Shown: positions 33,701 through 60,212 of the stretch, one piece after another
How the letters are laid out: each line of letters begins with the position of its first letter
How positions within the stretch are numbered: position 1 is the stretch's first letter
From: a virus
Virus record (IMG/VR): IMGVR_UViG_3300012920_009134
Coordinates: 35,732-99,731 of that record
Reading direction: 5' to 3' (one strand)
DNA: 64,000 nt
Position numbers and translations under genes: made by a program
Notes under the pieces: model-generated
The model's input: only the letters and a program-made list of their open reading frames with translations
The model's database searches: none
Told to the model about the DNA's origin: nothing

Positions 33701-36700
33701 GACAAGATTTTAAACTAGTTGCAGGTCAAAAAACTATAAATGTTAGTAGCGGTAACAACAGGCGCGGCCGCGGGGCAGCATTTCAGTTTGCAGTGCCAAA
33801 TAGTAATGGTTTCACGCAGGGTGGCACTGCAAACCAAAAAAATAAAATACCTCACGGATGGAGAAGTTATGTTGCTAATAATACACCAAGGACTATAGCA
33901 GACGCCACAACTGGACCTAGACTTGCTAACTTAAACGGATCTGCAACAAACCTAGAATATCCTCACGTAATCGCTTTGGTTGGAACGGACAACAATGCTA
34001 ACGCGCACTCAAATAAAGGAACGGTACCGCGTTCACAGATTCCCGGTGGTGACGGAACAACCTATAGCACTAATATCTGGCGTCACATAGAGACAACCGG
34101 ATCTGCGATTAGCGTCACAAAAGGTGCTGTTGTGCAGGTTCATATAAGGACAGGAAATCATGCATCGAATATAGATAGTTGGGGGATGTTAAAGGCTTCA
34201 AGTGACTTGTTTGTTCAGATTGGCACTGGCACCACTTGGACAACAATAGGAAAAGTTACGGCGTTTCAAAATCCAGAATGGGATTCTTGGCCGGACAACA
34301 AGTTTAGAAGATATGTGTTTGGTGTACCACCAAATGCCACTGCTGCTTTTGCTAGTGGCGTAGATCTTAGGTTCCTGCAAGCGTCAAGTCTCACTGCTGA
34401 TTTCAGGTCGGGTTGGTTGATTGCTATGCCAACTGTCTTTCATTGTCTTGAAGAGGTAGGTAACAATGAAGCGTTAAACGATCAATATAAGTTTGCGAAA
34501 GATTTTGTTGGACTTGCAGAGTTGGATACACCGGTAAAATCATATACATCAGCAAGAGTTCCGGCATCAAAACGAAGATATTATTCTCCACAAAATTTTG
34601 AACCCTCCTTATTGTCTTTGGGCGCTTTAGATAAATACGGTGACGAAATTGAACCAAGATTTTTTGGATCAGCAAAACACCATAGTGCATCGTCCATATC
34701 TTCAGATTATTTAGAAACTTATGATCAAATAGTAATGCAAGATGCTCAAAAGCAGTATGTGTCGTACTACCAAAAAGACGATAAAAAAGATCACCATCTG
34801 TATGGTTCGCAGTTCTTTAGGACGCCTGAGCACGCTTCTAGGAATCCTTTTAACTTTAGCAACTATGCCGACTTTAGAGAACAATCTAGATTGCTGGCAA
34901 AAGATTATGCACTGGTGCCAGAATTTAGAATTAGCGAGCACATGGATTTTTATCTCAACACTATTGGAGGTGAAGATCCGTTCTTTAGTTGTAATGATAC
35001 TTTTTTAAATATAACTGGTTCTGATGTAGAATCGCCCGATAATAGTGCTGTTGACAACTTTTATGAAGTCTACAGTCATACAGATTTTCTAAAACATTTT
35101 AGTGTTGTAGAGGATGAGTTTAGAGAGGTAAAAACTGTTAAACCAACAAAGTTAAAGTTGGAGTGTAGAGCGTTTAAGAAGTTCTTACCCTACAGAGGAT
35201 TGTATCCAGCAGACAGGATGACGCAATTGGCATCAGATTTCAGTTCATCTTATTCTGCTTTCATTACTGGCGGACACTTTAGAAATGTATTGGCACCTTA
35301 TTACGCACCTGGAATTGGATTTAACTCTATAAAATCTGGTCTTGCAGTCGACTATCCGATTATAGAACCTCATAAAGATAGAATTTATAATCAGTATGCT
35401 GTTATGTTTCAGTCAGCAAGTCTTGCAATCGATGAAAATTTTGGCAATGCTAATGGAGCAGGTCCTCACTCGAACGGAACAAGATCTGACGGAACTCCGT
35501 TAATCGCTGGCGCTGCTTCTACAAGTCCAAAACTATCTAGAAACAGAGTAGAGATAGGCAAACCAGCAGACTGGGCAAAGGTTATTTCTGGAAGTCTTGC
35601 ACCAGGCGGCCCTGGCGTATCTGGAAAGGCAATCACCGTTTCTTTGTGGATGTACTTTCCAAAGGTTTATAGTGGTCATGGATCACTCGACGGACACTCT
35701 CCAACTTCTATTGGACTCTATAGACAAAAAGGAAATATAATATCTTTTGGTGGATCCCGAAGAAACATCCCCCTCTTCGACGCGTATTGGAGGAGTGGTG
35801 TTAATTTTGGTTACTTTATCGGCGTGGATTCTATGGGTGGTAACTTTGATAGGCGAACGTATGATGCAAACTTATCTGTAGCAGGACACAATTCATCTCT
35901 TATGGTAGGCAAGGGTTTTACTAATGATAGGATGTATACCATAGGGTTTACTTGCACCGGCGGTGATGGCATCACCAACCTCGGTAGCACCGATGGTTTC
36001 TTTTCTTTTGTTCGAGTTTCGAACGCTTATAACTCTACAGAAGATTTGAAAGCAATACATCCAGGTTGGAATCACATATTATTATCCTTAGAGTTAGACA
36101 ATATTGGTATATCGTTTGCGGGACCTGGAAATACTAACGGATCAGTCAAAGGTTTTAATGCCTGGGTGAATGGAGAAAAATACACTGGCGCAGGCGTAAT
36201 AAAATGTAGTAGCGATTATTTTAACAATGGACAGTCAAATTTTACAAATACATCTTATCCGGTACTTGATGAGGGCACCAAAACAACAGGTGAAAATGAA
36301 GATTTTGTTTGTATTGGACAGAATGTCAAAGCAGTTGAGTACTACAATTCTGTTGCAACGGGATCTTTACTGTCACCAACCCATAGGCATATTAATTCAA
36401 CAGCGCTGCATTTGGAAGATTACATTTTCGATGATGGTACTATTGATGGCACGAATTCTGCGCACACAAGCAAACTTAATACTTACACAGATGCACGCAC
36501 TGTGGATGGTGATGCTATTGACATTAGTGATAATATTATGAATGATTTTGTGTATCCGGGTGAAAATATGATGTCAGAGGTAATCATACTAAACACACCC
36601 GGTACAGATCAAATGGCAAGAACTTTAAGTGGATACGTAAAAGGAACACCTGACTTTAGGGCGATGATACCAAAGGTATCTCCATTCGTGTTGGGACAAT

Positions 36701-51283: not shown

Positions 51284-51957
51284 TGAAAAATAGAAAAGAA
51301 ATACTTGATCTTAAGATACATGAACTTAAGTTTGCCATAAAGAAACTCGAAATACATCAAAAAATAAACCACGAAGCAATGACTAAGTTTTCTAAAATGT
51401 TCAAAGAATATATAGATTCTGTTGAGGACGGCAAAGTAAAGCACAAGTTAAAGCAGGCAGCAGGACTTGCTGGAGAAAACGAGAGAAGGTCATCCAAAAC
51501 TGCAAAAAGAGCAAAACAGCAAAAGCAGTACAAGAGAGGACAAACTAAAGTACAACCAGAAGTAGAACAAGAACAGGTCTACGAACCACCCCCTGAAAAA
51601 CCAAAGAAAGAACTCCCAAAAGAATACAAAGCGCTGTATCGCAAAATAGCGAGCAAGACCCATCCAGATAGAATAAAGGATGACGAAGATAAAAAAAAGA
51701 TCTTGCAAGAAGTAAACAAAGCAATCACAAACGAAGATTACTTTAAGTTAATCGAATCTGCAATAAAGTTGGACATTGATATACCGGAAGAAATTGGAAT
51801 AAATTTTGGTGCTATTCAACAAAAGATATCCTCAATCCTCAACCAGATCAAACAAATCACAAAAAGCGTTGCCTGGGAATGGTATCATCTAGAAGATGAT
51901 GAAAAAAAGAAGAAACTTATTGAGGGTTACGCTTCTTTCATAACCGAGCACAAATGA
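51283..51957 (+). CDS. J-domain (DnaJ-like) protein
   Basis: A 224-residue, very lysine/glutamate-rich protein. Residues 1-100 are helical and probably coiled. At about 114-148 a compact J-domain core can be read: YKALYRKIASKTHPDRI with the catalytic HPD at residues 127-129, then EVNKAITNEDYFKLIESA, the helix III/IV region. J domains stimulate the ATPase of Hsp70 (DnaK). Outside that core there is no zinc or glycine-rich region, so this is a class C J protein. It overlaps both neighbours by one and 4 bases. Likely role: recruiting host DnaK to phage assembly or replication; this is inference. Confidence 0.7.
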   Translation: MKNRKEILDLKIHELKFAIKKLEIHQKINHEAMTKFSKMFKEYIDSVEDGKVKHKLKQAAGLAGENERRSSKTAKRAKQQKQYKRGQTKVQPEVEQEQVYEPPPEKPKKELPKEYKALYRKIASKTHPDRIKDDEDKKKILQEVNKAITNEDYFKLIESAIKLDIDIPEEIGINFGAIQQKISSILNQIKQITKSVAWEWYHLEDDEKKKKLIEGYASFITEHK

Positions 51958-52484
51958 TATTAGGACTGGATATTTCAACAAGCATAACAGGGGCAACTGT
52001 TCTTGACAAGGACGGCGCGTGCGTATATAATGAATATTGGGACACGAGGAATAAGAATCATTTTCCGACAATATACCATAAGGCACAGCACGTAAAGGCA
52101 CACTTAGAAAGGTTACATAGTGAGTACAAGTTTGAACATGTCTTTGTAGAACAGTCACTTCAGTCCTTTCGCTCTGGATTCTCTTCAGCACAGACTTTAT
52201 CTACTTTATCTAGATTCAATGGTATGGTATCTTGGATGTGTTGGGATATGTTCGGACACGAACCTCAAATGCTCGCAGCAACCTCTGCTAGAAAGCAAGT
52301 TGGAATAAAGGTTTCGAAAGGCGAGAAAGGAAAAGAAAAAAGTTTTGATTTTGTTGTTGCAAACGAACCCACTTTTGTAGTAGAATATACAAAGAATGGA
52401 AATGTAAAACCAGGTATCATGGATAAGTCTGATAGTTGGGTAATAGCGAAAGCAGGTTACAATCTTTGTATAGCGAAAAACTAA
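51954..52484 (+). CDS. RuvC-like Holliday-junction resolvase family protein
   Basis: A 176-residue RNase H-fold protein. The first catalytic strand is LGLDISTSITGATVLD with D6, the second acidic residue is E69 in HVFVEQSLQSF, and the C-terminal helix carries D157 and D160 in MDKSDSWVIAKAGY, the DxxDA-like pair of RuvC. The length (176) fits bacterial RuvC (about 170). Known RuvC proteins cut four-way DNA junctions. In a phage it would replace gp49-type endonucleases in clearing recombination branches before packaging. It overlaps the J-domain gene by 4 bases and the primase gene by up to 49. Confidence 0.68.
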   Translation: MILGLDISTSITGATVLDKDGACVYNEYWDTRNKNHFPTIYHKAQHVKAHLERLHSEYKFEHVFVEQSLQSFRSGFSSAQTLSTLSRFNGMVSWMCWDMFGHEPQMLAATSARKQVGIKVSKGEKGKEKSFDFVVANEPTFVVEYTKNGNVKPGIMDKSDSWVIAKAGYNLCIAKN

Positions 52485-53392
52485 GTATCATAAAGCAGAG
52501 TCTTGGTGCCTATTATAAATCAAGCGATGAAATGCTCTTCTTTTGTCCAAAGTGCAATCACCATAAGAGAAAACTTTCAGTTAACATAGAGAAGAATAAG
52601 TTTCAGTGTTGGGTCTGTGAATATAAGGGAAGTAAAATAGACCCCTTGATCAAAGATAGAGATCTAAAACAAAAGTGGAGACAATTAACAAACCAAGTAG
52701 ATCTTAGTAGGTTTGAAGATTGCTTTGCGACTGAAGAAACTCTTGAAGTTGCTCAAACGCTTGAACTACCCGAGTATTACACAACATTGTCAACCCCCAA
52801 CCTCTCTTCTATCGGCAGGAAAGCGTTTGATTATTTGATAGATCGTGGAGTGACTAGATCTCAGATACTGATGCATCGAGTGGGGTTTTGCCATCATGGA
52901 CAGTATGCGAACAGGATCATTGTCCCATCTTTTAATCAAGAGGGTGATCTAAACTACTATATTGCGAGATCGTTTGGTGAAGACTATTTAAAATATAAAA
53001 ACCCTCCATGCTCAAAGGATGTTGTATTTAACGATCTTTTTCTTGATTGGTCAAAACCGATCGTTTTGGTTGAAGGGTTTTTTGATTCTTTAAAGTACGA
53101 AAACAGTGTTCCAATATTGGGATCGACACTTAGTATTAAAACTAAACTTTTTAACAAAATAGTTGACAACTGCAAGACGGTTTATATTTGCCTAGATCAA
53201 GATGCAAGAAAAAAAGAATTAAGAATAGTAAAGAATTTGCTTGACTTTGGCATAAATGTCTGTAAAATAAAACTATATGAATATTCCGATTTGGGAGAGG
53301 TTCCTGATTATTTGCTTGGAGAGTACAAGAATCGTGCCTCTATTGTTACAAGGCAAGACTATTTATTACAAAAACTTAACTTTGGAGGTTAA
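52436..53392 (+). CDS. DNA primase (CHC2 zinc finger and Toprim), gp61/DnaG-like
   Basis: A protein of up to 318 residues. Near residues 36-60 the zinc-binding motif CPKCN and CWVCEY, separated by a basic loop, forms a CHC2-type primase finger. The Toprim part follows: VLVEGFFDSLKYE with the conserved glutamate, and YICLDQDARKK with the DxD pair. No helicase domain is present, so this resembles T4 gp61 acting with a separate helicase. The start is uncertain: TTG 52436 and TTG 52466 are both in frame and lie inside the RuvC-like gene; no ATG precedes the zinc finger close enough. Either way it is translated from within the previous gene. Confidence 0.75.
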   Translation: MGNSESRLQSLYSEKLSIIKQSLGAYYKSSDEMLFFCPKCNHHKRKLSVNIEKNKFQCWVCEYKGSKIDPLIKDRDLKQKWRQLTNQVDLSRFEDCFATEETLEVAQTLELPEYYTTLSTPNLSSIGRKAFDYLIDRGVTRSQILMHRVGFCHHGQYANRIIVPSFNQEGDLNYYIARSFGEDYLKYKNPPCSKDVVFNDLFLDWSKPIVLVEGFFDSLKYENSVPILGSTLSIKTKLFNKIVDNCKTVYICLDQDARKKELRIVKNLLDFGINVCKIKLYEYSDLGEVPDYLLGEYKNRASIVTRQDYLLQKLNFGG

Positions 53393-53584: not shown

Positions 53585-53598
53585 AAAACGGAGGATAG

Positions 53599-56500
53599 AT
53601 GAAGTTTGCCCATATTGCGGATACGCATATCCGCAACCTTAAGTTTCATTATGAATATAAAGAAGTATTTAAACAGTTGTACGCCTCTCTCAAAGAAGAG
53701 GGCGTAGACTACATTGTACACTGTGGAGATATTGCACATACAAAAACTCAGATCTCACCAGAGTTTGTTGATATGGCGAGAGATTTCTTTGAAAACCTTG
53801 CCGCTATAGCGCCAACCTACATAATTCTAGGCAATCATGACGGTAATCTCAAAAACAGCAGTCGTCAGGACGCCATATCGCCTATTGTGAAGGCGTTGGG
53901 TAATGAACGCATAGTATTACTCAAGAACGCTGGTGAACATCGCTTAGAGGGCGGGTTTTGCCTAAATGTTTTATCGGTGTTCGATGAAGAGAACTGGGTA
54001 GATCCTACCGACAGCGAAGCAGTGAACATTGCGTTATATCATGGCGCTATTGATAAATCTAAGACTGATCTTAATTGGACGTTAGGCGGAGATCATGATA
54101 TTGGAATCTTTGATAAGTTTGATTTCGCCTTCCTTGGAGATATTCATAAGACACAGATTCTCGATCGAGAGGGTCGCATTCGGTACGCCGGATCAACAGT
54201 ACAGCAAAACTTTGGAGAATCTTTGGACAAGGGGTATTTGCTTTGGGATATTGAAAATAAAGATGATTTTACATGTAAGTTGATCACGTTTAAGAATCCA
54301 CAACCATTTGTAACGATAAACCTTAACAAGGACGGATCACTCCCAGATGTTGATTTAGATCTATCAGAGGGATCTCGGGTTCGCTTAGTTGCAGACTCCA
54401 ACATATCTTTGGATGTTATGAGGAGGAGTGTTGATATTGCAAAGTTTAAGTTTAAACCAGAAAGCATAACATACCTGAATCGTGCGTCTAGCAAGGCATT
54501 GGATGTCGGTACCGAAACCGTAAAGCAGGAAGACCTCAGAAATATTAACGTGCAAAACAAACTCATAAAAGATTATCTTAAAGACTATGAGGTTGCGGAA
54601 GATGTCATGGAAAAGGTCGTAGCGATAAACTCTAGACTTAACAAGACGATAGAAGATTCCGAAGAGATTTACAGAAACATAAACTGGAGCATGCAATCTC
54701 TTGAGTGGAGTGGATTGTTTAATTATGGTGATAACAACAAGATAGACTTTACAAAGTTGGAAGGCATTGTTGGCATCTTTGGAAAGAACTTTTCAGGCAA
54801 GTCTTCTATTGTTGACAGTCTTTTGTATGCAGTTTACAACTCTACATCTAAATCAGTTAGAAAAAATCTCAATATGATAAATCAGAATATGGATGTTGGT
54901 TCTGCAAAAGCGACAATCAAAATTGCTGATAAAGAACTGAATATTGAGCGTATATCTGAGAAATACACCAAAAAACTCAAAGGTGTGGAGACCGAGGAAG
55001 CCAAGACGGATGTTGATTTTTATTCAAGTGATGCAATAGGAAACACCGAAAGTCTTAATGGCACATCCAGACAAGACACAGATAAAAATATTAGAAAGTA
55101 TTTTGGAAACCTAGATGATTTTCTGATGACCTCCATGGCGTCTCAGTTAGATTCTCTAACTTTTATCAATGAGGGATCAACAAAGAGAAAGGAAATACTC
55201 GCTAAATTTTTAGATTTAGAGATTTTTGATAGAAAGTTTAGGATGGCAAAAGAAGAGTCCGCTGATATTCGCGGAGCGTTAAAAAGATTAGAAGGTAATG
55301 ATTATGACGAACAAATTCAGCAAGCGACCGCTGTCTTGGTCGAAAAGAATAAGATTCTTAAGACAAATCAAGAAAGATGCACAAAGTTGGAGAGAGAAAT
55401 ACAACAACTCCAGGTCGAGATTTCTTCCATTCAGGTTAAGATTGACTCTGCACCAACTGAAATCATTGACCCCATCAAGATCAATATGGAGAAAGAAACT
55501 GCGTTTAGAAAGTTAAACAAACTTAAGAAACAGTTAGAAGAAAATAGAAAAGAAGACGCAAGTGCAAAAAGCAAATATGCAAAGATCTTAAAGTTCCTGG
55601 AAGAGTTTAATATCGAAGAGTACAAGCACAAGAGAGATCTTTACGCCAAAAGTAACGAAGAGTTACAAAGATTGATTTTAGAACTAGAAAAAGAATCAGG
55701 ACACAAGTCTCTCTTGATGTCAGAGCAGGATCGTGTCTGTTCTGACTGTCACCACATTATTGAAGAAACGATAAAAAAGAAAAGTTCAACCATTGGCAAC
55801 TTAGCGATGAAGATTAACACGATTGGTGAAGGTCATAACGCAGAAGAGCAAGCAAAGGTTATCGATTATCTTGACAAGTATCAGCAAGTAGAAGATAAGA
55901 AGATTGAGACATCTGAGCGCATTGCTAAACTGCAACTTATCATCGATAAGGGGATAAGTGATATTTCTGTTCAAGAATCTTCTCTAGAAAAGTTGAACTT
56001 GAAACTTAAAAAGTACAACGACAACAGAGAGGCAATAGAGAATCTGGAAGAACTTATACTGGAAAAGAAGAATCTAGAAAAACTTGCAAGCAAAAATAAG
56101 AGAGAATGTGATTTATGTAAGAAACAGACCAACAATCTTTTCAGAGAAGTTGGTTCTGCAGAACAACAGATTAAGAACCTGGAAAACGATAAAGAAGAAC
56201 TTGAGTCTTTGAGAACTGAGTTTGCTGCATACGAACTTTTTATGAGATGTTTTCATACAAACGGTATTTCGTATAACGTCATCAAAAACAGACTACCAGT
56301 TATTAACGAAGAGATCGCTAAGATCTTAACTGGTATTGTTGACTTCGAGGTGTTCATTCTTAACGAGGATAAAAAGTTAGACATCTTTATTAAGCACCCT
56401 AAGTTTGAACCTCGTCCATTAGAAATGGGATCAGGAGCAGAGAAAACCATAGCATCCATGGCCATCCGCCTTTCTTTGTTATCAGTTTCGAGTCTCCCGA

Positions 56501-56700
56501 AACCAGATATTTTTATTTTAGACGAACCTGGAACCGCTCTGGATGAGGATAATATGGAAGGTTTTGTAAGAATTATTGACATGGTGAAGTCATATTTTAA
56601 GACTGTTATCCTTATCTCGCACCTAGATACTCTTAAAGACGCAGTGGATACGCAGATCGTTATTGATAAGAAAAAAGGATTTGCCCATGTAAGTGTCTAA
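53599..56700 (+). CDS. Single-chain Mre11-Rad50 (SbcD-SbcC, T4 gp47-gp46) fusion
   Basis: A 1,033-residue protein joining two usually separate subunits. Residues 1-330 are the Mre11/SbcD nuclease: ADTHIRN at 7-13, HCGDIAHT at 41-48, LGNHDG at 77-82, ALYHGAID with H148, LGDIHKTQ at 179-186 and QNFGES at 203-208. Residues about 375-1,033 are the Rad50/SbcC ATPase: Walker A GKNFSGKSS at 395-403, long coiled coils from about 570, CSDC at 714-717, a second CDLC at 837-840, the ABC signature EMGSGAEKTIASMA near 942, and Walker B IFILDEPGTALDED near 972-985. The enzyme processes DNA ends for recombination-dependent replication in T4. SD GGAGGATAG precedes the ATG. The two CxxC motifs are unusual: Rad50 normally has one zinc hook. 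Confidence 0.9.
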   Translation: MKFAHIADTHIRNLKFHYEYKEVFKQLYASLKEEGVDYIVHCGDIAHTKTQISPEFVDMARDFFENLAAIAPTYIILGNHDGNLKNSSRQDAISPIVKALGNERIVLLKNAGEHRLEGGFCLNVLSVFDEENWVDPTDSEAVNIALYHGAIDKSKTDLNWTLGGDHDIGIFDKFDFAFLGDIHKTQILDREGRIRYAGSTVQQNFGESLDKGYLLWDIENKDDFTCKLITFKNPQPFVTINLNKDGSLPDVDLDLSEGSRVRLVADSNISLDVMRRSVDIAKFKFKPESITYLNRASSKALDVGTETVKQEDLRNINVQNKLIKDYLKDYEVAEDVMEKVVAINSRLNKTIEDSEEIYRNINWSMQSLEWSGLFNYGDNNKIDFTKLEGIVGIFGKNFSGKSSIVDSLLYAVYNSTSKSVRKNLNMINQNMDVGSAKATIKIADKELNIERISEKYTKKLKGVETEEAKTDVDFYSSDAIGNTESLNGTSRQDTDKNIRKYFGNLDDFLMTSMASQLDSLTFINEGSTKRKEILAKFLDLEIFDRKFRMAKEESADIRGALKRLEGNDYDEQIQQATAVLVEKNKILKTNQERCTKLEREIQQLQVEISSIQVKIDSAPTEIIDPIKINMEKETAFRKLNKLKKQLEENRKEDASAKSKYAKILKFLEEFNIEEYKHKRDLYAKSNEELQRLILELEKESGHKSLLMSEQDRVCSDCHHIIEETIKKKSSTIGNLAMKINTIGEGHNAEEQAKVIDYLDKYQQVEDKKIETSERIAKLQLIIDKGISDISVQESSLEKLNLKLKKYNDNREAIENLEELILEKKNLEKLASKNKRECDLCKKQTNNLFREVGSAEQQIKNLENDKEELESLRTEFAAYELFMRCFHTNGISYNVIKNRLPVINEEIAKILTGIVDFEVFILNEDKKLDIFIKHPKFEPRPLEMGSGAEKTIASMAIRLSLLSVSSLPKPDIFILDEPGTALDEDNMEGFVRIIDMVKSYFKTVILISHLDTLKDAVDTQIVIDKKKGFAHVSV

Positions 56701-56706
56701 GGAGGG
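56699..56706 (+). promoter_or_regulatory. Strong Shine-Dalgarno site choosing ATG 56714
   Basis: AAGGAGGG ends 8 bases before ATG 56714. A GTG at 56693 in the same frame lies upstream of it inside the end of the Mre11-Rad50 gene and is therefore unlikely to be the start. Confidence 0.6.
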
Positions 56707-56713
56707 TAACATT

Positions 56714-56911
56714 ATGACGGCAATTAAAGCATTTGCTGACAGACATGTGGAACGGTTTATTTCTAGAAAGTTTTTGGCGTGGTTGACTGCTACTGGATTG
56801 GCAGTTGCTGGTTCTCTTACATCTGGAGATTGGGTCGCCGTCACTCTTGCCTATATTGGTTCTCAGGCACTAGTTGACTTAGCAGTGCAGTGGAAGCACG
56901 GTCAAAAATAA
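56714..56911 (+). CDS. Small membrane protein, holin candidate
   Basis: A 65-residue protein with two hydrophobic segments, at about residues 20-36 (FLAWLTATGLAVAGSL) and 41-58 (WVAVTLAYIGSQALVDLAV), separated by SGD. It starts with a basic-aromatic stretch (ADRHVERFISRKF) and ends in a charged tail. Two membrane spans with short ends fit a class II holin, but many small phage membrane proteins look like this. The following genes encode an N-terminally anchored coiled-coil protein and an exported coiled-coil protein, which strengthens a lysis reading. No endolysin lies next to it. Confidence 0.55.
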   Translation: MTAIKAFADRHVERFISRKFLAWLTATGLAVAGSLTSGDWVAVTLAYIGSQALVDLAVQWKHGQK

Positions 56912-56918
56912 TCTCAAA

Positions 56919-57305
56919 ATGTATCACATAAAAGTCATATGGGTCTGGTTAAGACAGAACTGGAAGATTCCTTTTCTTGTTTTGTGGTCTATTGTTGTTT
57001 GGGCAATTTCTAGAAAGAATGCCCAGGCGGCGATGGATGTACTTGACGCAAGAAAAGAGTCGTATGAAAAACAAATCGTATCTTTAAAAGAGAACCACAA
57101 AAAAGAATTAACAAAGAGAGATTTATTAGTCAAGCAATATCATGACACCATTAAAAAAATAGAAGAAAAGCACAAAGAGAAAAGTGCTATACTTACTAAA
57201 AAGAACAAACAAAGAGTAAAGCAGATAATAGAGGAAACAGAAGGAGATTCGGATGCAGTTGAGAAAAGGATTGAAGAACTTTTTAATCTTTCTGATCTTA
57301 ATTAG
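56919..57305 (+). CDS. Membrane-anchored coiled-coil protein, i-spanin-like
   Basis: A 128-residue protein. Residues 12-29 are hydrophobic (QNWKIPFLVLWSIVVWAI), followed by a basic-to-acidic helical region from 38 to 120 full of Lys and Glu with heptad spacing. This N-in, C-out topology is that of inner-membrane spanins (Rz). The following gene overlaps it by 53 bases in another frame, also seen in Rz/Rz1 pairs. A spanin role is a hypothesis: the candidate partner lacks a clear lipobox. Confidence 0.5.
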   Translation: MYHIKVIWVWLRQNWKIPFLVLWSIVVWAISRKNAQAAMDVLDARKESYEKQIVSLKENHKKELTKRDLLVKQYHDTIKKIEEKHKEKSAILTKKNKQRVKQIIEETEGDSDAVEKRIEELFNLSDLN

Positions 57306-57693
57306 TTTTACTGCTGCCCAGGCGACACCTCACATACAGAAGGTTAATAAAGGCGACCCAGCACTTTTTGCGGGGTGGTGCTTGAGCAATGCAGCAATGG
57401 CAAAGATTATTGCAGACAAAGAGCAGGAAGAAGACCGCTGTCAACTAAAAATCGAAACAGAGGTTGATAAGTGGAAGGCAAAATATCACTTAGAGGTTAG
57501 TAACCTTGATCTAAGAATACAGAGTTTAGAAGAAGAGTTAGACACAACTATTTCAATAAAGAATGAAGAGATAAAGAAGTTGGAAAAAGTTGCACTTGAG
57601 AGACCAAATGATTATTGGTATTTGTTCACAGCAGGCGGTTTTGTTGTTGGCGCATCTGCTGTTTTGGGTATCTGGGTGTTGGTAGGCAAGTGA
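57253..57693 (+). CDS. Exported coiled-coil protein with C-terminal membrane segment
   Basis: A 146-residue protein with SD AAGGAGAT 6 bases before ATG. Residues 1-23 look like a signal peptide (basic RKGLK then NFLIFLILISFTAAQA). A coiled coil runs from about 55 to 110, and residues 126-145 are hydrophobic (GGFVVGASAVLGIWVLVG), ending in a lysine. One-chain exported proteins with a C-terminal span resemble unimolecular spanins, but those begin with a lipobox, and here the only nearby cysteine (C43 in FAGWC) does not fit it. It shares 53 bases with the upstream gene and 4 with the next one. Confidence 0.5.
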   Translation: MQLRKGLKNFLIFLILISFTAAQATPHIQKVNKGDPALFAGWCLSNAAMAKIIADKEQEEDRCQLKIETEVDKWKAKYHLEVSNLDLRIQSLEEELDTTISIKNEEIKKLEKVALERPNDYWYLFTAGGFVVGASAVLGIWVLVGK

Positions 57694-58097: not shown

Positions 58098-58629
58098 AAT
58101 TATTAACGGCATTTCGCATGTATTGGCAAAAGGTTACGATGGAGCACTCGACGAGAACGACGAACCTTTAAAGGTAGGTCTGAAAAGGGAGGAGGGGAAT
58201 CCACTCATTGATCCGAGAGTGGTTGATGGATTTGGAGTAAAGTTTGAATCAAACTGCATATGCATTACATACTCTAGTGAAGTAAAACTAAAGGAAGTGT
58301 ATGGTGGATCATTAGAGAACGATGTATCATCTAAGATTTCTGATGTCGCTGCATTTATTAAGAAAGAGTACAGAACACTAACGAAGAGTGGTTTGACTCT
58401 AACTGCAGACGGAGAAGTTAATGTCCTTGTGCAACCTGTTTCTAGGGTAAGAACTTTAGTCACGGCCGTTCAAAAGTTCAAGATTGGCGGTATTGAAGAA
58501 CAACCTAACGAAAGAGAAGCGATAGGCATTCCAACAACCCCTGAAGCAAAGAAGACACCTAACGATAAAAGAAAAGCAGACCCATTTGAGGTCTTTAAGG
58601 CATATGATTTCGCAAACAGGAAGAGATGA
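58081..58629 (+). CDS. Unknown protein upstream of terminase
   Basis: A 182-residue protein with a mixed alpha/beta pattern: ATTLEIINGISHVLAKGYDGA at the start, a GGSLENDVSSKISDVAAFIKKEY helix, a TLTADGEVNVLVQPVS strand pair, and a charged C-terminus (KKTPNDKRKADPFEVFKAYD). It directly precedes and overlaps the large terminase gene by 4 bases. A terminase small subunit would fit the place, but the fold expected for gp16 (coiled coil) is not evident. Reported as unknown. Confidence 0.6.
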   Translation: MATTLEIINGISHVLAKGYDGALDENDEPLKVGLKREEGNPLIDPRVVDGFGVKFESNCICITYSSEVKLKEVYGGSLENDVSSKISDVAAFIKKEYRTLTKSGLTLTADGEVNVLVQPVSRVRTLVTAVQKFKIGGIEEQPNEREAIGIPTTPEAKKTPNDKRKADPFEVFKAYDFANRKR

Positions 58630-60212
58630 GTTCGGTTCTATCTAAGAAAGAAATAATGCGAGAAATAGTTAAGTCGGGTCGTGATCCAAACTATTTCATC
58701 ACTAACTATGCAAAAATCACTCACCCACTAAAAGGATTGATACCGTTCAAGACTTATCCCTTTCAGAAGGATGCACTAAAGAATTTTGAAGATCATCGAT
58801 TCAACATTGTTCTTAAGGCGCGACAGTTGGGTTTATCTACTGTAACGGCAGCATATGTTGTATGGTTGATGATGTTCCACAAAGAAAAGAACGTGCTTGT
58901 ATTGGCAACAAAGTTTGGTACAGCAGCAAACCTCGTAAAGAAGGTAAAAACTATTATGAGGAACTGCCCAGATTGGATTAGGATAGCGCAAGTATCTGTT
59001 GACAACAGAACGTCATTTGAGTTAACAAACGGTTCGCAAATAAAAGCATCCTCTACTTCGGGCGACGCAGGTCGTTCAGAAGCGCTGTCTCTTTTGGTAG
59101 TGGACGAAGCAGCACACGTCGAAGGTTTAGATGAACTTTGGACCGGTCTCTACCCTACGCTATCAACAGGTGGTCGATGCATTGCTTTATCGACACCAAA
59201 TGGTGTTGGCAACTGGTTTCACAAAACGTATGTGGATGCAGAGAGTGGGACTAATGATTTTTTCTCCATGAACTTACCCTGGGATGTACATCCAGACAGA
59301 GATCAGGATTGGTTTGACAAAGAAACAAAGAATATGTCCCGCCGCCAGATAGCACAGGAACTAGAATGCAATTTTAACATGTCAGGCGAAACCGTTTTCC
59401 ATCCAGAAAAGATGGAACAGATAAGACAGTTTATGACTGAACCAAAATACAAGACAGGTTTTGATAGAAACTATTGGATTTGGAAAGAAGCAGAACCGGG
59501 AGTGCCATATTTGTTGAGCGCTGACGTAGCAAGAGGTGACGGAAAAGACTTTTCTGTGTTCCACATATTCGATACACTAAATATGGATATTGTAGCAGAG
59601 TATCAGGGTAGAGTGACACCAGATATCTTTTCGCAGATCCTGTTCGATGCAGGTAGAGAATACGGAGATTGCATGATAGTTGTAGAAAATAATACAGTTG
59701 GTTTCGCAGTTCTTGACAAACTCTTAGAAATGCAGTATCCTAATATATACCACTCAATTAAGTCATCGCATGAGTATGTAGACCAGGTTACTGCAGAAGC
59801 AGCATCAAACGCCGTTGCAGGATTTACTACAAGTCAAAAGACTAGACCTTTGATTGTGGCAAAGTTAGAGGAATTTGTAAGAAATGAACTAATTACGATA
59901 AATTCTCCTCGTCTTTATAATGAGATGAAGACTTTTATCTGGAACAACGGAAGACCAGAGGCGATGCGATCGTACAACGATGACTTGATTATGGCGTGCG
60001 CTATTGGATGTTGGGTGAGGGATACTGCTTTGATAGAGAATAAGAGAAACATTGAATACAACAAAGCATTTCTTGCTACAATGATGGCGGCAAAAACTAA
60101 AATGAACACTACAATAAAAGGTATGCATGGATATGAGGGCGATAGCGTTTTTGAGAAAAAGAAGAAACATTCTCAAACCTACGACCAATTTCCTTGGTTA
60201 TTTAAAGGATAA
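58626..60212 (+). CDS. 17: Large terminase, gp17-like packaging ATPase/nuclease
   Basis: A 528-residue terminase (T4 gp17: 610). ATPase: adenine/Q motif FQKDALKNF near 41, Walker A KARQLGLST at 64-72, a WLMMFHKEKNVLVLATKFGTA motor segment, Walker B LLVVDEAAH at about 156-164, and the ALSTPNGVGNWFH coupling motif. Nuclease (RNase H-like): SADVARGDGKDFS near 300, VVENNTVG near 351 and YNDDLIMACA near 451 supply the acidic metal site. It pumps and cuts concatemeric DNA at the portal. The portal gene begins 5 bases downstream. Assignment is firm. Confidence 0.95.
   Translation: MSSVLSKKEIMREIVKSGRDPNYFITNYAKITHPLKGLIPFKTYPFQKDALKNFEDHRFNIVLKARQLGLSTVTAAYVVWLMMFHKEKNVLVLATKFGTAANLVKKVKTIMRNCPDWIRIAQVSVDNRTSFELTNGSQIKASSTSGDAGRSEALSLLVVDEAAHVEGLDELWTGLYPTLSTGGRCIALSTPNGVGNWFHKTYVDAESGTNDFFSMNLPWDVHPDRDQDWFDKETKNMSRRQIAQELECNFNMSGETVFHPEKMEQIRQFMTEPKYKTGFDRNYWIWKEAEPGVPYLLSADVARGDGKDFSVFHIFDTLNMDIVAEYQGRVTPDIFSQILFDAGREYGDCMIVVENNTVGFAVLDKLLEMQYPNIYHSIKSSHEYVDQVTAEAASNAVAGFTTSQKTRPLIVAKLEEFVRNELITINSPRLYNEMKTFIWNNGRPEAMRSYNDDLIMACAIGCWVRDTALIENKRNIEYNKAFLATMMAAKTKMNTTIKGMHGYEGDSVFEKKKKHSQTYDQFPWLFKG

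Follow-up and report, generated by a model that had tools for sequence, protein, structure and literature searches.

A single-chain Mre11-Rad50 protein of a marine tailed phage, conserved among its relatives and likely T4 gp46/gp47-like in role

The window analysed here is a 64,000-nucleotide stretch (positions 35,732 to 99,731) of IMG/VR virus record IMGVR_UViG_3300012920_009134, and covers the right two thirds of this 99.7-kb fragment. On its plus strand, a single open frame runs from an ATG at 53599 to a stop ending at 56700, without internal stop, and encodes a protein of 1,033 amino acids (Table 1). An SD core precedes the ATG, as in most relatives of the gene. In the protein, Pfam detects Metallophos (calcineurin-like phosphoesterase) at residues 1-167 (6e-13), AAA_23 at residues 371-608 (2e-10) and SMC_N at residues 366-1024, while PHROGs assign residues 1-338 to the SbcD-like phrog_100 (8e-35) and residues 314-1031 to the SbcC-like phrog_77 (6e-48). 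The catalytic motifs of both halves are all found in the single frame, Mre11 first: a complete Mre11/SbcD-type nuclease occupies residues 1-354, and a complete Rad50/SbcC-type ATPase with its coiled coil and hook occupies residues 362-1033. An earlier note had read this frame as carrying all motifs of the nuclease and of the ATPase in one chain, and the 1,033 open residues, Pfam, PHROGs and the full motif sets all agree with that reading.

Table 1. Features of the fused gene and of its neighbourhood (positions in the window; AF2, AlphaFold model).
Feature	Position	Strand	Basis
RuvC-like Holliday-junction resolvase, neighbour	51954..52484	+	phrog_159; upstream in 77/81 relatives
DNA primase, neighbour	52436..53392	+	phrog_47; upstream in 80/81 relatives
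Ribosome-binding site GGAGG	53590..53594	+	upstream sequence; 4 nt before ATG
Fused Mre11-Rad50 gene, whole	53599..56700	+	open frame; Pfam; PHROGs
Mre11/SbcD phosphodiesterase (nuclease) domain, ~residues 1-230	53599..54288	+	Pfam Metallophos; conservation in 104 proteins; AF2 secondary structure
Mre11 capping domain, ~residues 237-294	54307..54480	+	AF2 model; phrog_100 match to 338; boundary inferred
Mre11 C-terminal helix-loop-helix (putative), residues 316-354	54544..54660	+	AF2 helices H316-330, H334-354
Joint EIYRNIN, residues 355-361	54661..54681	+	AF2 boundaries; alignment of 104 proteins
Rad50/SbcC ATPase N-lobe, Walker A GKNFSGKS, residues 362-560	54682..55278	+	Pfam AAA_23; K401 invariant
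Coiled-coil arm, ascending	55279..55737	+	AF2 helices; C594 conserved in 98/104
Hook C714-S-D-C717 (CxxC), predicted	55738..55749	+	motif reading, alignment
Coiled-coil arm, descending	55750..56250	+	AF2 helices, alignment; C840 conserved in 99/104
Rad50/SbcC ATPase C-lobe: signature SGAEK, Walker B/D-loop ILDEPGTALDE, H1008	56266..56697	+	archaeal Rad50 3qku match, 1.9e-13; conservation
Terminase large subunit (T4-type), neighbour	58626..60212	+	phrog_2; downstream in 67/80 relatives

The Mre11 half carries the motifs DTH, GDIAH, GNHD, H148 and GDIH, and fully matches the metallophosphoesterase set D-x-H, GD-x2-[DH], GNH[DE], H, G[HD]-x-H. Conservation was followed in an alignment of 104 distinct full-length fused proteins, those of the window, of Microcystis phage Mel-JY01 and of Listeria phage LMTA-57 included, in which the Mre11 active-site residues (D8, H10, D44, H47, N79-H80, H148 and D181-x-H183) are invariant or nearly so. 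Strict invariance was observed for D44, H47, N79, H80, H148 and H183 and, in the Rad50 half, for K401, G946, D975, E976 and H1008, and one gap is the only exception at D8/H10. D181 occupies the position of a metal-ligand His in cellular Mre11 and in T4 gp47. Several further fused phage proteins, as well as an unfused T5-like D12, have Asp at this position, so the substitution appears to be tolerated. Helices 316-354, preceded in the AlphaFold model by a low-confidence loop at residues 295-307, are assigned by their position as a putative Rad50-binding helix-loop-helix, by analogy with that of T. maritima Mre11 (PMC3175470).

The Rad50 half has its motifs at both ends of the chain, with the Walker A GKNFSGKS at one end and the signature SGAEK, the Walker B/D-loop ILDEPGTALDE and the switch SH at the other. 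Between them, long modelled helices flank C714-x2-C717 on both sides, suggesting an antiparallel coiled coil with a predicted zinc hook; the Pfam family Rad50_zn_hook is absent among the matches listed. The hook varies within the family, the window protein and a few close relatives having CxxC and most relatives C-x6-C in the context VPCG..[FY].xCKFIKDA. Two other cysteines of the arms, C594 (55378-55380) and C840 (56116-56118), are nearly invariant, eight proteins lacking one or the other and three of these eight lacking both. As they lie 120 and 123 residues from the hook, one on each side, they should face each other across the antiparallel arms, and could possibly form a disulfide or metal site.

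To model the window protein, AlphaFold was run with a 39-row alignment (mean pLDDT 80.7, pTM 0.46); a pTM of this size does not establish how the domains sit relative to each other. Along the chain, the model contains the nuclease, the capping domain, the low-confidence loop, a two-helix element, the joint and the first Rad50 strand. The last Mre11 helix stops at residue 354 and the first Rad50 strand begins at 362, leaving a joint of about 7 residues. The note had located the joint near residues 340-375, which is the right place, although the boundaries are slightly narrower (~355-361). This short segment is well conserved, with R359 invariant, N360 present in 102 of the 104 proteins and, just after the joint, W363 in 103. 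A PDB fold search with the model returned the Mre11-Rad50-Nbs1 complex and E. coli SbcCD, and the best full-length matches in the viral library were giant-virus DNA-repair proteins resembling Mimivirus R555, proteins of Tenacibaculum phages and the Listeria LMTA-57 protein, whose fused form is present in the BFVD library. One of the R555-type matches, the fused protein of Tupanvirus, shares 22% identity with the window protein over 1316 columns.

A fusion read from one assembled genome could be due to an assembly or sequencing error joining two adjacent genes in frame, and there seems to be one such case, that of Listeria phage LMTA-57 (3908-6937). Its annotated 1,009-aa "recombination exonuclease" is fused, but in some 50 Listeria phages nearly identical to it this stretch is one base longer and holds two genes; a one-base artefact, or else a fusion of very recent date, is the probable explanation of the LMTA-57 entry. 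For the window protein the situation is different. In two scans of IMG/VR this frame was seen at over 100 loci, uninterrupted wherever the contig holds the whole gene, and about 100 distinct intact fused homologues were recovered from independent marine virus contigs and assemblies, down to 48-50% identity. Retention of an unbroken frame in so many different full-length homologues excludes chance. More distant fused relatives occur in cultured phages. Finally, across the joint (residues 340-375) nine pairs gave pN values of 0.02-0.17 against pS values of 0.69-1.2, and the closest pair pN 0 against pS 0.29, which indicates strong purifying selection across the joint. An assembly error has thus almost no probability left. 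The search of viral proteins that the note had proposed found the same fusion with its frame intact, and the misassembly by a missed stop or frameshift that it had envisaged is excluded by these independent copies, without reads.

We also considered whether the mature enzyme could consist of two polypeptides, arising either by internal initiation near codon 365 or by proteolysis at the joint or in the 295-312 loop. The window gene has an internal ATG at codon 365, and the modelled loop at 295-307 is of low confidence. T4-like phages make processing proteases. However, only 11 of the 104 relatives combine a start codon and an SD core in the region of the joint, which corresponds to the background, since other windows along the gene gave counts of 1-15 and one gave 37. 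Moreover, the joint is conserved rather than loose, as R359 and W363 indicate. Production of two polypeptides consequently seems very unlikely, and a single chain is the reading retained here.

The gene lies downstream of RuvC-like and primase genes and upstream of the genes for a T4-type terminase and a portal. The terminase is closest to those of Flavobacterium phage immuto (45%) and Microcystis phage Mel-JY01 (43%). The record contains one match to the fused protein. Each of 12 large relatives (123-204 kb) gave a single SbcD-like match and a single full-length SbcC-like match, both corresponding to the fused gene; no separate Mre11/Rad50 pair was found in any of the 12, and all 12 carry a RecA-family recombinase gene at another site. 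In one of these genomes the SbcC profile matches a second time, weakly and over 82 positions. Small ORFs lie directly downstream of the fused gene (56693-57693): a 72-aa ORF that overlaps its end, looks holin-like by eye and is matched in 80/80 relatives, followed by 128-aa and overlapping 146-aa ORFs, which may form a lysis cassette. The phage record contains, by eye, a block of glycosyltransferase, heptose/sugar-nucleotide and sugar-kinase-like genes (left part; L142, 6611-15547), suggesting surface-glycan modification. As for a cellular home of the fused gene, three candidates gave no evidence of a cellular copy. They are a 24-kb contig with the same size and match as a viral contig, a 7.8-kb MAG contig, and the WOR-3 MAG "chromosome" CP070664.1, a scaffolding chimera with phage genes (RuvC, primase and a truncated Mre11-Rad50) between runs of N.

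Homology, co-occurrence with RecA and the gene neighbourhood together point to a likely T4 gp46/gp47-like role, that is ATP-gated resection for phage recombination and replication. Taking the mechanism of the T4 MR complex as a model (PMC13402864), we infer that two chains would pair (M2R2) both by their Mre11 parts and by their ATP-sandwiched Rad50 heads, the coiled coil with its hook tethering DNA. ATP-driven head engagement would control access to the nuclease, and hydrolysis would open it for resection of DNA ends. The resulting 3' single strands would feed recombination and recombination-dependent replication via a RecA/UvsX-type recombinase of the phage; breakdown of host DNA is a possible extra role. 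It could also be proposed that the fused protein has left the gp46/47 role and acts mainly in host-DNA degradation, anti-defence or defence, like SMC-nuclease systems. The PDB fold list does include the Lamassu and Jet/Wadjet SMC ATPases, which match the ATPase half in general, and Yoshida et al. suggested that the role of cellular fused forms may not be that of the canonical pair (PMC3175470). Such a change of role is nevertheless given little credence here, as the gene is the sole Mre11/Rad50 gene of the large relatives, has primase and RuvC genes as neighbours and is found together with RecA. We therefore favour, with a probability of roughly 0.87, a real single-chain Mre11-Rad50 of a marine tailed phage, vertically maintained and likely T4 gp46/gp47-like in role.

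The covalent link would secure co-expression, 1:1 pairing and joint inheritance. That the fusion fixes a 1:1 stoichiometry, as first claimed along with a possible effect on end-processing, does follow from the link, yet a 1:1 ratio is already that of the canonical M2R2 complex. In the T. maritima complex the Mre11 C-terminus is ~28 Angstrom from the Rad50 N-terminus (PMC3175470), so that the architecture is not expected to change by fusion, and the order and short joint of the window protein fit, by analogy, with this complex. It is unlikely that obligate cis pairing, each Mre11 acting only with its own Rad50 because of the short conserved joint, makes nuclease gating unlike that of two-gene complexes, with C594/C840 and the interchangeable CxxC and C-x6-C hooks regulating arm closure in the clade. 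The fusion alone opens no new mechanism, and a single-chain MR would be a handy construct for structural and single-molecule study of the ATP gating of the nuclease.

The note had contrasted the fusion with the separate genes of T4 and bacteria. This is right for T4 and model bacteria, but the implied novelty does not hold, Mre11/Rad50 fusions having been described in 2011 in Mimivirus (R555), Bacillus phage 0305phi8-36, plasmids, bacteria and eukaryotes (Yoshida, Claverie & Ogata 2011, PMC3175470) and occurring also in several sequenced phages, under labels such as "AAA domain protein", "DNA repair" or "metallo-phosphoesterase". The fusion itself is already known, and the window protein adds one further case. 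The same authors found R555 homologues to be strikingly abundant in aquatic samples of viral size fraction, argued that these are partly phage genes, and proposed a phage origin for many of those from marine metagenomes (PMC3175470). The marine "R555-like" fusion, predicted to be phage-borne in 2011 from short metagenome reads, is now placed in large marine phage genomes, of which it is the only Mre11/Rad50 gene.

In a tree of 25 fused and unfused rows, the window clade and Mel-JY01 group together with a support of 100/97. The other fused rows also lie on the same side of the tree, a split that is not firm (88/90), with the exception of LMTA-57, which is nested in the unfused Herelleviridae; the panel would thus include at least two joins if the LMTA-57 record is right. 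A single clade of the marine proteins with Mel-JY01 and the protein of the 735-kb phage LR756501 was rejected (AU p 0.002). The tree is consistent with the recurrent fusion already published, some branches being long and their placement unsure. Further fused single-frame proteins of the phage collection are those of Xanthomonas phiXF1 and Rhizobium RHph_TM61, and unfused pairs occur in T4, cyanophage ACG-2014f, Vibrio 1.081.O, Herelleviridae and T5-like phages. In the 484-kb phage LR756508.1 (4944-9169), an insert of ~1 kb with a 305-aa zinc-ribbon ORF, homing-endonuclease-like in looks, interrupts the fused gene directly behind the active-site motif GDIHKRQ; an Rfam search for a group I or II intron in this split gene gave no match.

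Among known systems, E. coli SbcCD shares the fold and the motifs, but has two genes, a much longer coiled coil and the canonical His ligand. The gp47/gp46 pairs of T4 and ACG-2014f have the same domains and motifs and likely the same role in phage recombination; they differ in being two genes with small genes between them and in their shorter Rad50 part. Tenacibaculum pT24/PTm1, Sphingomonas PAU, Chryseobacterium MA9V-1 and LR756501 also encode a single-chain Mre11-Rad50, although their proteins are longer (1,202-1,326 aa) and form a separate well-supported branch. The R555 type has the same order (Mre11 then Rad50), keeps the helix-loop-helix and the capping domain, and shares the short joint, the Asp for the Pf His206 ligand, the absence of a separate pair in the virus and the abundance in marine viral samples. 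The comparison made here with the window protein itself is a fold match to R555-type giant-virus proteins. R555 is a 1,351-aa protein of a eukaryotic giant virus, whereas the 1,033-aa window protein belongs to a tailed phage. The closest isolate is Microcystis phage Mel-JY01, whose fused protein WWT39521 ("AAA domain containing protein", 1,066 aa) is 34.5% identical over 79% and is likewise encoded next to a primase gene; it differs by its cyanobacterial host (Microcystis elabens) and its distant sequence.
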